From positions 1-26,567 of IMG/VR virus record IMGVR_UViG_3300024999_000341: a stretch of 26,567 bases of DNA. The stretch is one strand, 5' to 3'. This DNA is from a virus. The position numbers and the translations under genes were made by a program. How positions within the stretch are numbered: position 1 is the stretch's first letter; each line of letters opens with the position of its first letter. Positions 2,120-26,567 of this stretch are shown piece by piece. The notes below the pieces were generated by a model. It saw nothing but the letters and a program-made list of their open reading frames with translations, ran no database searches and was not told where the DNA came from.

Positions 2120-3670
2120 TCACCACCAGCTCGCCATCATTAGTTTCTTTTTTTCTACAGCAAAAAGATTATAGTCATTGACCATATAGTAGCTAGTCAT
2201 AGCACAAAGTAAGGCAGAAGTAAAGTGATCTTCCCCTCTTTTTCCACCTCTTTGTGTAAGAGTTTTGTATACAATTTCTCCTGTAGGAGTTTTAGAATAA
2301 GTCATTCTTTCTAGTTCTGTTATCATTTCTGTATCGGTATAGGAATAAATAATCTTTCTATTATTAGTATATTCTTGTAATACTGTTACAGCAAATGGTT
2401 TTGTTTTTTGTTTTATTTCTTTCCCATCAGAGTCAATTCCTAAAGAAATGGATGAAGAAAAATCTATGGGAACTATTTTTTTCTTGTAATCCTTATGAAC
2501 ATAATCTCTGTGTTCCAATAGGTTTTGAATAACTGAAACACCAGCACTTCCTCTATCAATTCCTATAATATAAGGATTATACTTAGTGTCTAGTAAATCT
2601 ATAATTTTTTCTTGTATTGGATAGGTAACTTTTGTAAGTTTGACCTTAGCATGAAATTTAATAGTACCATTACTTGGGTCTTCATACATTACGAACACAC
2701 AAGATGGCTCGGTGTATCCAAGGTCAATTCCCATAATGCATTGTTTTATCTTATCAGGAAGTGCGGGGAGAATAGATATACCACTAAGAATATTTATTAG
2801 ATTATCCCCCTCCCTAACTCCATCAAACTCAAATTTGTATACTGGATAAGATTGAATATCAAACGCATTTCTATCAAATAGAGAGAATACTGGTTTCCCA
2901 TGCTGGCCTAGCCAAAGATGAACATAGTCATCTGAATCTTCTCCACCATATTGTTCAATAGCTCTCTGTCTGTCTTCTTCAGTAAATCTAGGGTTTTGAA
3001 AAGAGGATATTCTGTGTTTAGTATAATTAGTATTTTCTTGGTCGGTGTGCCAAAGAACGTTCTTTTCTCGTAATCCTGTAGGAACACCAGAACAAACTAA
3101 TTTATAACCATTTTGCCAAGTATTAACAATTGGTTGTAACTCCAGAAAAGTAGCAAAAGGGTAGTAACCAGCCTCGTCCAGTATAACATAGGGGGTGTGT
3201 AAACCAATTACATTTGCCCCTGTACCACTCATACCAGCAATACGACAGATTAGTTTGGACTGATTCTTTAGAGAAATAGAAAATTCAGATCCATTAATTC
3301 CACCATTTCTTTCTATATAGTTTTGTAATAGAGAATTAGATCTAAACATTCTGGTAAGATTAGCAAAAACAGGCTCTAGATGTACCTTACTTGGAACTGT
3401 ATACACAACATAGTTATCTGGAAAGATGTTGAAAAGTAGTGCCCAAATAATGTTTATAGTTAAAGATACTGTTTTTCCTGTGGCTCTAGATGCCATTAAA
3501 GAGACATAAGAATTAAAGTCGCAAAGATACTCTTTTTGGTAGCTAGTTAGAATGAATTCTTCCTCATGTTCTGTTCTATCTAAGTTAGATAAAAACTCTC
3601 CGAGTAGGCAAGGATTACGGAAGATTTCATAAACTTCCAAATCGTCTCTAGTGCATCGCTCCTCAATCAT
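2120..3670 (-). CDS. terL: Terminase large subunit (ATPase and nuclease)
   Basis: 516 aa, normal for TerL. It packages and cuts concatemeric DNA into proheads. The N-terminal ATPase has a Walker A-like SRATGKT at 61-67 and Walker B VILDEAG with D165-E166. The C-terminal RNase H-like nuclease shows three acidic positions in the expected order: D316 in GIDLG, D372 in GIDRG and D481 in GEDHFTSA. All key acidic residues are present, so it looks functional. The ATG at 3668-3670 overlaps the stop of the upstream glycosyltransferase by 8 nt, so the sugar cassette and the packaging genes are on one transcript and probably translationally coupled. Portal follows after 6 nt. Confidence 0.95.
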   Translation of the reverse strand: MIEERCTRDDLEVYEIFRNPCLLGEFLSNLDRTEHEEEFILTSYQKEYLCDFNSYVSLMASRATGKTVSLTINIIWALLFNIFPDNYVVYTVPSKVHLEPVFANLTRMFRSNSLLQNYIERNGGINGSEFSISLKNQSKLICRIAGMSGTGANVIGLHTPYVILDEAGYYPFATFLELQPIVNTWQNGYKLVCSGVPTGLREKNVLWHTDQENTNYTKHRISSFQNPRFTEEDRQRAIEQYGGEDSDDYVHLWLGQHGKPVFSLFDRNAFDIQSYPVYKFEFDGVREGDNLINILSGISILPALPDKIKQCIMGIDLGYTEPSCVFVMYEDPSNGTIKFHAKVKLTKVTYPIQEKIIDLLDTKYNPYIIGIDRGSAGVSVIQNLLEHRDYVHKDYKKKIVPIDFSSSISLGIDSDGKEIKQKTKPFAVTVLQEYTNNRKIIYSYTDTEMITELERMTYSKTPTGEIVYKTLTQRGGKRGEDHFTSALLCAMTSYYMVNDYNLFAVEKKKLMMASWW

Positions 3671-17104: not shown

Positions 17105-17288
17105 GATTACCTTTTTCGGGATAAAATTTATTATCTACTTCGGTATTAAATTCATTCCAAGAAGAATATAGTCTAAACCACTCTGCAAAACTCAGATCTT
17201 TGTTTTTAATATTCTTAACAAAGGCATGAGAAATTTCATCACTATTTACTTCTTCTCTTAGAATTTGAATAAAAGTATTAAAATTCAT
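17097..17288 (-). CDS. Hypothetical protein, 63 aa
   Basis: The start is set at the ATG at 17288, which makes an ATGA overlap with the GMP reductase-like stop; the in-frame extension to 17315 would lie inside that gene. Helical, acidic, Trp/Phe-containing (FAEWFRLYSSWNEF near 33-46). No motif recognised. Confidence 0.6.
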   Translation of the reverse strand: MNFNTFIQILREEVNSDEISHAFVKNIKNKDLSFAEWFRLYSSWNEFNTEVDNKFYPEKGNHV

Positions 17289-18310
17289 TTTTGTATAATA
17301 CTCTCCGTGCCGCACAAAATAAACTTGGCATTTTTATGCAAATCACTTATAGATGTTGAATTGCTATATACAAAACCACTTCTCATGTTCCAGCAAAATT
17401 CTGTAATTAACTCCTCCAAAGACATTTTCTTAGTTGCTTCTTGTTGAACACCCTCCACACTTTTCCTAACTTCTCCGTAGAACTGTTCTTGATGTTCTCT
17501 AGATGCTTGTCCTTGAATTTTTCCATCGTGATCAGATTCATAAGCATTTGCAAATAATGACCCAATCATTAAGAAGTCTGCTCCAAGTGCTAGTGCTTTT
17601 GTTCCGTCCCCAGATGTTTTTATTCCTCCGTCTGCTATAGTATACCAAGGGGTTTTAGGGTTGATTCTGTGCTCGCTGCCCATCTCGTAAATATCAATAT
17701 CATTAAGATAATGACTGCAATCCTGAATGGCAGTAGCTTGAGAAACGCCTGAGCCAGTATTTTGTCTCGTAACACAGAGTTGTCCTGACCCAATGCCAAC
17801 TCTGATTAAAGTAGCTCCTGCATCATATAGTCTCTTCGCTCCATCAAAAGTAGCAACATTTCCCGCCATAACTAGGCAATTATACCCACTTTGTTTAATA
17901 TAACCAGCAACATTTTCTGTAAACTCTACTACGGAATCAAGGTATCCATTTGCAACATCGATCAAAAGTATGTTTGCTCCATAACTTAATGCATGTCTAT
18001 AATAATTGTCACCTAATCCTATTGCCACACCAAAATTAATTGCAGATTTTTCTAAGAAAGATACATCCTTTTCTCGTTCAATAACATCATTATAAAATCT
18101 ATGAAGAATCCCAAGTCCTCCAAGCCTTCCCAATTCTCTAATTAACTCCACACCGACAATTCCAGACATTGGTGCAGAAATAATAGGTAGTTTTAGTATA
18201 AAACCATTGCCCAAATCTGTAGATAAATCTACTTCACTTCTGGAATTTATTGACGATGGCTGTGGAATAAGAAGTATATCATCCAGTTCAAATCCTTGTC
18301 TAACGTTCAC
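17285..18310 (-). CDS. guaC: GMP reductase-like enzyme (IMPDH/GMPR family, no CBS domains)
   Basis: 341 aa, the length of GMP reductase. The start is GTG at 18310, with AAGGAG about 8 nt upstream. Catalytic loop GIGSGQLCVTR has C179; IDVANGY at 117-123 follows GMPR (IDVANGY) rather than typical IMPDH (AHGH); ADGGIKTSGD at 226-235 and GADFLMIGSLFA complete the barrel phosphate site. GMPR reduces GMP to IMP with NADPH; IMPDH runs the other oxidative direction. The flap after FYGE (277-280) is about a dozen residues shorter than in cellular GMPR, although an S-x-E-G-like element (SVEG) follows. IMPDH or a changed nucleobase specificity cannot be excluded. Overlaps the upstream zinc gene by 11 nt. 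Confidence 0.75.
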   Translation of the reverse strand: MNVRQGFELDDILLIPQPSSINSRSEVDLSTDLGNGFILKLPIISAPMSGIVGVELIRELGRLGGLGILHRFYNDVIEREKDVSFLEKSAINFGVAIGLGDNYYRHALSYGANILLIDVANGYLDSVVEFTENVAGYIKQSGYNCLVMAGNVATFDGAKRLYDAGATLIRVGIGSGQLCVTRQNTGSGVSQATAIQDCSHYLNDIDIYEMGSEHRINPKTPWYTIADGGIKTSGDGTKALALGADFLMIGSLFANAYESDHDGKIQGQASREHQEQFYGEVRKSVEGVQQEATKKMSLEELITEFCWNMRSGFVYSNSTSISDLHKNAKFILCGTESIIQK

Positions 18311-25841: not shown

Positions 25842-25874
25842 AATATTCTCCTTTAGAATTATTTTAGTGTTAAA

Positions 25875-25944
25875 GCTCCCTAGTAGACTCGAACTACTAC
25901 CAAAACTGTACAGAGGTCTTATGCTACCATTACACCAAGAGAGC
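25875..25944 (-). tRNA. Atypical tRNA, best read as tRNA-Thr(TGT)
   Basis: A 70-nt cloverleaf: 7-bp acceptor (GCTCTCT/AGGGAGC, one G-U), a 4-bp D stem with AATGGTA loop, T stem AGTAG/CTACT with TTCGAGT loop, and no encoded CCA. With standard spacing the anticodon is TGT (25910-25912), followed by A37. Thr identity is supported by G1-C72 and C2-G71. Odd points: position 33 is C rather than T, and pair 31-39 is C-A. A 9-nt loop reading would place GTA (Tyr) instead. The isoacceptor is therefore uncertain, and it may be a decayed gene. Confidence 0.7.
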
Positions 25945-25964
25945 CCTGCGACAAGCTTATTTAA

Positions 25965-26065
25965 AGTCTACCGCTGCTCGGTTCCATTGTCCTCTGGCCG
26001 TTTCTGACCAACTTCCGCACCCCTTTACTGATATTTGAGTAAACTCAGGGACACAGCAGTAGACT
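25965..26065 (-). ncRNA. Structured RNA module C: long hairpin with three-way junction
   Basis: The outer stem pairs 25965-25976 with 26054-26065: 12 bp, with one G-U on the minus strand that would be a mismatch on the plus strand, so the minus strand is the likely RNA. Directly inside is a 5-bp stem (25988-25992 with 26049-26053). Two hairpins follow: 26024-26029 with 26038-26043, and 25995-25999 with 26006-26010. No open reading frame is credible here. Family not recognised. Confidence 0.5.
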
Positions 26066-26069
26066 TAAA

Positions 26070-26162
26070 GAATGTAGAGAGATTCTAACTCTCATCTCCT
26101 GTCATAAAGAACCACAGGATGCTCACCTAGATCATATTTATTTTGATTTACACCATACATCC
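26070..26162 (-). ncRNA. Structured RNA module B: tRNA-like acceptor and T-arm
   Basis: The 5' seven bases (26156-26162) pair with 26070-26076, and a 5-bp T-arm-like hairpin (26077-26081 with 26089-26093, 7-nt loop) lies immediately before the 3' strand, as in a tRNA. An internal stem (26097-26102 with 26114-26119) has an 11-nt loop. The T-loop is TTAGAAT instead of TTCRAAT and no D-arm is clear, so it is not a normal tRNA. Confidence 0.35.
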
Positions 26163-26228
26163 TCTAAAAAATACCGGTGGGGAAACAATCCCGCTATCTA
26201 TCCAAAGAGGCTGGAGATTTTGTTTTTT

Positions 26229-26323
26229 CTCAACCATCGGCAGAGGCCATCCTACCTTCTGAACCAGCGGCATGGAGCCACCGTGCTGTTATGTCTACCG
26301 CGAGACGGAAACTGCGGATTGAG
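26229..26323 (-). ncRNA. Structured RNA module A overlapping HNH gene end
   Basis: The closing stem pairs 26312-26323 with 26229-26243 (7 bp, then 5 bp with a small bulge). Three smaller hairpins fit inside, including one with a CGGTGGC/GCCGCTG stem. The stretch is clearly GC-richer than the surrounding phage DNA. Its right arm lies in the last codons of the HNH gene. Family not recognised. Confidence 0.4.
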
Positions 26324-26567
26324 CCACAACCTCTATTTTATTATACTTTTTACAGTTACATGAGATACATAATGGTTGAACATTATCGGCTGAGTGTGTT
26401 CCGCCTTTTGATAATGGAATAATGTGGTCAAGACTTATCCTCTCTTGTGTTCCACATTTAGCACATTTGTATTCGTGTTTAGATAATATTTCCAACCATT
26501 CGGACTTAGTCAACTTGTTTTCACAGCCATTTTTAGCTGCTCTGCGTTTTTCATCATTTAATCTACG
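26295..26567 (-). CDS. HNH endonuclease, N-terminus beyond window edge
   Basis: The frame is open from base 26567 to a TAG at 26295-26297, giving about 90 codons. C-terminal HNH core: YKCAKCG (two Cys), then ISLDHIIPLSKGG (DH pair), NVQPLCISCNCKKYNK (N and the second CxxC). The preceding part LTKSEWLEIL is the usual helix. No in-frame ATG is inside the window, so the start is outside. The last 12 or so residues run into structured RNA module A, unlike a normal HNH C-terminus, which suggests it was inserted beside or within an RNA element. Likely a homing endonuclease. Confidence 0.85.
   Translation of the reverse strand, partial: RRLNDEKRRAAKNGCENKLTKSEWLEILSKHEYKCAKCGTQERISLDHIIPLSKGGTHSADNVQPLCISCNCKKYNKIEVVAQSAVSVSR

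Follow-up and report, generated by a model that had tools for sequence, protein, structure and literature searches.

A tRNA-like element and a stable hairpin between an HNH gene and tRNA-Thr at the end of a phage contig

We analysed a 26,567-bp virus contig from IMG/VR (the window, meaning the whole stretch) whose genes lie on the minus strand. On balance, we favor the reading that this contig stops within a phage tRNA array or on its border, and that the 349 nt between an HNH endonuclease gene and a tRNA-Thr gene hold a degenerate or atypical tRNA (module B) and a structured spacer (module C), all transcribed together. This is the simplest account of the tRNA, the HNH gene, the rise in GC content, the tRNA-like module and the stable hairpin. 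Before the contig stops, 622 nt past tRNA-Thr, the window shows a single canonical tRNA, together with one element resembling a tRNA. Counted against the array reading are two relatives, L101 and L203, whose syntenic stretch is without tRNAs, the sub-threshold scores of module B, and modules A and C, which are unexplained as tRNAs.

Phage tRNA arrays typically include HNH genes and additional structured RNAs (PMC5966550; PMC12286853). Among the CDSs in tRNA arrays of mycobacteria and mycobacteriophages, HNH genes are the most widely distributed, and a structured RNA of ~430 nt is present in about 81% of the mycobacterial arrays (PMC5966550). Like the mycobacteriophage arrays that carry HNH genes, our locus combines a tRNA, an HNH gene and a GC-rich structured noncoding stretch on one strand (PMC5966550). 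Unlike them, it has a single canonical tRNA in the window, and its structured stretch has no GOLLD match.

The gap and its neighbors

Portal and terminase genes occupy the left end of the contig, followed rightward by genes for a DnaB helicase, exonucleases and a primase. Read on the minus strand, the right end runs from the HNH gene through the 349 nt to tRNA-Thr(UGU) and then to a short protein gene. An earlier note on this DNA had described a gene-free gap of about 350 nt, richer in GC than its surroundings, between an HNH gene and a tRNA in the same orientation, and these points held up. The gap at 25946-26294 (minus) has no credible ORF, with the HNH ORF stopping at 26295 and the tRNA starting from 25945, and its GC content is ~0.45 vs ~0.30 (~31%) in the surroundings. 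The tRNA at 25873-25945 (minus) is a genuine, canonical tRNA-Thr with anticodon TGT/UGU (ARAGORN 105.6; RF00005 45.7 bits), and ARAGORN finds the gene uninterrupted. The HNH gene, whose 3' part lies at 26295-26567 (minus) and which leaves the contig end, matches Pfam HNH_5/HNH (HNH at 1e-10) and PHROG 1035. Its product has 415 viral relatives, the best at 55-60% identity, and its C-terminus extends 12 residues beyond the conserved motif, as in free-standing phage HNH relatives. Since this length is normal for free-standing phage proteins, it gives no sign of an intron ORF, and the product reads as a free-standing endonuclease, probably of the homing type. Elsewhere the window encodes an IMP dehydrogenase/GMP reductase (17285-18310, minus), which has a counterpart in the relative G005.

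Module B (26066-26166, minus) resembles the cloverleaf of a class II tRNA. Below its default cut-off, ARAGORN calls a tRNA with a long variable arm at 26068-26163 (score 92.1); at the default cut-off the module is uncalled. ARAGORN and the pairs read from the sequence place the acceptor (8-10 bp), anticodon and T arms (5-bp T stem) in the correct cloverleaf order, together with the long variable arm. The ARAGORN score was equalled in 4 of 3000 dinucleotide shuffles of the region; as a natural background, 756 kb of related phage DNA, both strands included, yielded 8 scores of 92-100. The T arm of module B is also the second-best RF00005 match in the whole contig, a local match of 12 bits that is below the gathering score of 29. 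When a sequence-only model of the module (R3) was run on 98 kb of relatives, one further match appeared, at L214 1273-1311 (E 0.027), and it coincides with the variable arm and T arm of a tRNA gene (L214 1265-1338, RF00005 29.9 bits). The next four matches of a model with the cloverleaf imposed (R1) were all tRNA genes, a result that is partly built into the model.

What kind of tRNA would this be? The anticodon loop, CUAGGUG, gives the anticodon AGG (Pro), and no normal bacterial isotype fits this anticodon combined with a long variable arm. In tRNAs, the D-loop GG and C56 of the T loop are partners of one tertiary contact. Module B has neither G18G19 nor C56: its D loop, AAATCAAAATAA, is without GG, and its T loop, UUAGAAU (TTAGAAT in the DNA), is without C56. 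Judged from these residues, a decayed or structurally reduced tRNA would be expected to show this joint loss. A tRNA origin explains the module better than a new structured RNA does, and a degenerate or atypical tRNA is our best reading of it.

Module C (25961-26069, minus) is a hairpin domain with inner hairpins, recognized as an inverted repeat and assessed with shuffles. Its 16-nt arms are inverted and 88% complementary, and 13 consecutive pairs close the hairpin; the earlier note had counted a 12-bp stem with a G-U pair on the minus strand only, and the single U-G among the 13 pairs is indeed A-C on the plus strand. None of 200 shuffles was equally stable on the minus strand (z -2.93), and the plus strand is less stable (9 of 200). 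Of 300 shuffled regions, 5 reach the score of this stem, which ranks in the top 4 when 262 segments of the window are compared. The best reading of module C is a structured leader or spacer RNA.

Of three structured modules originally proposed, module C is thus retained and module B is modest (4 of 200 shuffles equally stable), while module A is lost: its folding is at chance level (33 of 200), and the HNH coding sequence takes up its first 29 nt. Most of module A falls in the remaining noncoding stretch at 26170-26294 (minus), which has no significant structure. On the minus strand the whole 395 nt of the region is no more stable than its shuffles (z -1.09; 15 of 100 equally stable), and the 349 noncoding nt are modestly more stable (3 of 80). 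Some coding segments elsewhere in the window fold as strongly or better, so folding by itself is no proof. The motif reported as common to modules A and C, GTCTACCGC (minus strand GCGGTAGAC), does occur twice; two copies of this 9-nt repeat in ~400 nt are near chance (expected ~0.3).

A transcript of the minus strand would run from the HNH gene through the 349 nt into tRNA-Thr, and such read-through would make the region the leader or spacer of a multi-RNA precursor. Module B would then be a decayed or atypical tRNA gene that has kept its acceptor, T, variable and anticodon arms. Module C, beside the 5' end of the tRNA, would most simply be a structured spacer that insulates or guides RNase processing of the precursor, with cleavage at tRNA-Thr by host or phage RNase P. 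We infer whatever function modules B and C may have.

tRNA arrays in related phages

A terminase search returned 13 contigs, the best of which is nearly identical yet represents the opposite half of the genome. With DnaB we reached L101 (55% identity) and L203 (53%). Related-locus searches with DnaB alone and with the 100-aa gene adjoining the tRNA gave no relatives, and no DnaB relative was found in prokaryote genomes. Upstream of DnaB, L101 and L203 have protein genes where the window has the tRNA, the region and the HNH gene, and this block is therefore variable. At 2284-2372 (plus), L101 has a 90-nt intergenic element, flanked by the genes of a cysteine-rich protein (1489-2283) and a ClpP-like protein, in which we read by eye several obvious stems, GGTGGG...CCCACC and an inner GGCGAAAGCC among them.

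The tRNA arrays found in relatives have 6 to 28 genes: six in G015 (DnaB 53% identical, long synteny), 19 in G005 (terminase 66% identical) and, in G016, 27 by covariance model or 28 by ARAGORN. In these relatives, high GC content and structure are frequent among the array spacers, and z lies between -1.6 and -4.6 for most of them. None of the array elements was convincingly alignable with modules A or C, and local alignment of the region to the arrays was no better than shuffles, with the exception of G018. That alignment exceeded all 60 crude shuffles but is very gap-rich and lies outside the tRNAs, and we treated it as chance.

The closest parallel to module B is in G005, where ARAGORN missed a gene (L202 15981-16067, minus; RF00005 34.1 bits) that resembles tRNA-Ser(GCT) but is atypical. 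Both are of class II type with a long variable arm, a D arm without GG, an AT-rich D region and a good T arm. Module B differs in its lower score (the local 12 bits with RF00005), its 8-10 bp acceptor, its UUAGAAU T loop and an AGG (Pro) anticodon that is unusual for class II.

Other features of these genomes are worth recording. Two tRNAs have insertions in the anticodon loop: a tRNA-Trp that is one of the six in G015 (L211 2659-2779, minus; 43 nt) and a tRNA-Arg (L213 896-1021, minus; 31 nt). The G015 array (L211 2290-3125, minus) also contains several stem-closed inter-tRNA elements that have ACAGCAA in common just inside the 5' arm; two also have a GAGGTGAAGACCTC hairpin, and two are directly upstream of a DUF2828/DUF7788 gene. 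This pattern suggests a repeated RNA family, possibly Y RNA-like. We compared ATAACAGCAC of module A with this ACAGCAA-after-stem motif and dropped the comparison, the motif being too short to support a claim. In G017, an 80-nt stretch (L216 3919-3998, plus) matches tmRNA (RF00023) with 41.2 bits, narrowly short of the gathering score; this phage may carry a tRNA-like remnant of a tmRNA there.

Weighing other explanations

Could modules B and C, perhaps with A, instead form one new phage noncoding RNA of ~230-350 nt, with a tRNA-like domain and its own expression? We regard this as possible though doubtful. Module C is strand-specifically stable and module B tRNA-like, GOLLD and ROOL adjoin phage tRNAs (PMC12286853), and most mycobacterial arrays carry the ~430-nt RNA (PMC5966550). 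There could even be two folds, since GCGGUAGAC in module A could pair with GUCUACUGC of module C and replace its 3' arm, so that the module A copy and that arm would compete for one partner. However, 34 viral records that are related or carry a DnaB gene contain no homologue of modules B and C, blastn with the region found nothing but matches of chance length in annotated phages and plasmids, and the exact pattern of both module C stem arms has no match in IMG/VR; the chance-level module A and near-chance repeat also weaken the case. The version in which B and C make up one discrete RNA, with a long hairpin attached to a tRNA mimic, from a new family restricted to a little-sampled phage group and with the alternative GCGGUAGAC fold, is slightly less likely again, and if true it would be more interesting than the array reading. 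It is unlikely, to a greater degree than either of these, that the gap is ordinary untranslated DNA of higher GC content, its structure mostly chance and module B a chance cloverleaf. The z of -1.09 for the whole region and the window segments that fold as well or better are consistent with this, whereas the 0 of 200 shuffles for module C and the 4 of 3000 for the tRNA score of module B, both on the strand of the neighboring tRNA, argue against it.

Several named RNA types are much less probable. We ran cmscan against all of Rfam 15 on both strands of the region, using gathering thresholds as well as a cut-off of E=10, and recovered the tRNA plus chance matches to unrelated families, with no match to ROOL, GOLLD, HEARO, group I intron or tmRNA. 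The earlier guess about context is upheld by relatives whose tRNA arrays have structured spacers, while the ROOL-, GOLLD- or HEARO-like and intron identities proposed with it are not. Permissive ARAGORN calls of a tmRNA and of intron-containing tRNAs over the region were overlapping, mutually exclusive and poor, and we rejected them. It is improbable that the region encodes a Y RNA-like partner for a Ro60-type protein whose gene lies past the contig end. Module B does look like a tRNA and module C has a long closing stem, a resemblance to YrlA, the bacterial Y RNA (RF02553), with its tRNA-like domain and stem; stem-closed RNAs lie immediately upstream of the DUF2828/DUF7788 gene inside the G015 array, and jumbo phages can carry TROVE proteins (PMC7824862). 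However, the region has no YrlA match, the best match in relatives covers tRNA genes, and neither the window nor 19 other records gave a TROVE match. Still less credible are the remains of a group I intron with the HNH gene as its ORF. The HNH gene adjoins the gap, and a group I intron lies near 1 of 20 HNH relatives (L014), but the region has no RF00028 match up to E=10 (in its visible part, since any 5' half would lie beyond the contig), the HNH C-terminus is of the free-standing type and tRNA-Thr is uninterrupted. Least probable is a known large phage RNA of the ROOL, GOLLD or HEARO kind: like GOLLD and ROOL the region is phage-encoded and beside a tRNA, but no covariance model matches it at E<=10, and GOLLD is often >800 nt (PMC12286853) compared with the 349 nt here.

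An RNase P-like RNA and what the arrays may hold

Within its 28 tRNAs, the G016 array contains a 195-nt RNA resembling class A RNase P RNA (L212 1584-1778, minus, which is G016:C1:24583-24777 of IMG/VR 3300027917_000041), with tRNA-Leu and tRNA-Cys as neighbors. It matches RF00010 over model positions 1-367 with 61.5 bits (E 7e-20), short of the gathering score of 100, and has GAGGAAGGTC and ACAGAATCC, which resemble RNase P conserved regions. On this likeness, it is a candidate phage-encoded miniature RNase P RNA; the literature searched yielded no paper on such an RNA, and the window has no RF00010 candidate. This RNA may outweigh the region itself, whose own novelty is modest. If it is what it appears to be, some phages supply the RNA part of a tRNA-processing enzyme of their own.

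For the window, what follows depends on the array reading. If the contig does end in a phage tRNA array, then the tRNA-like genes of such arrays escape tRNA annotation when they are unusual or decaying, and the spacers between phage tRNAs contain structured RNAs that are unannotated.
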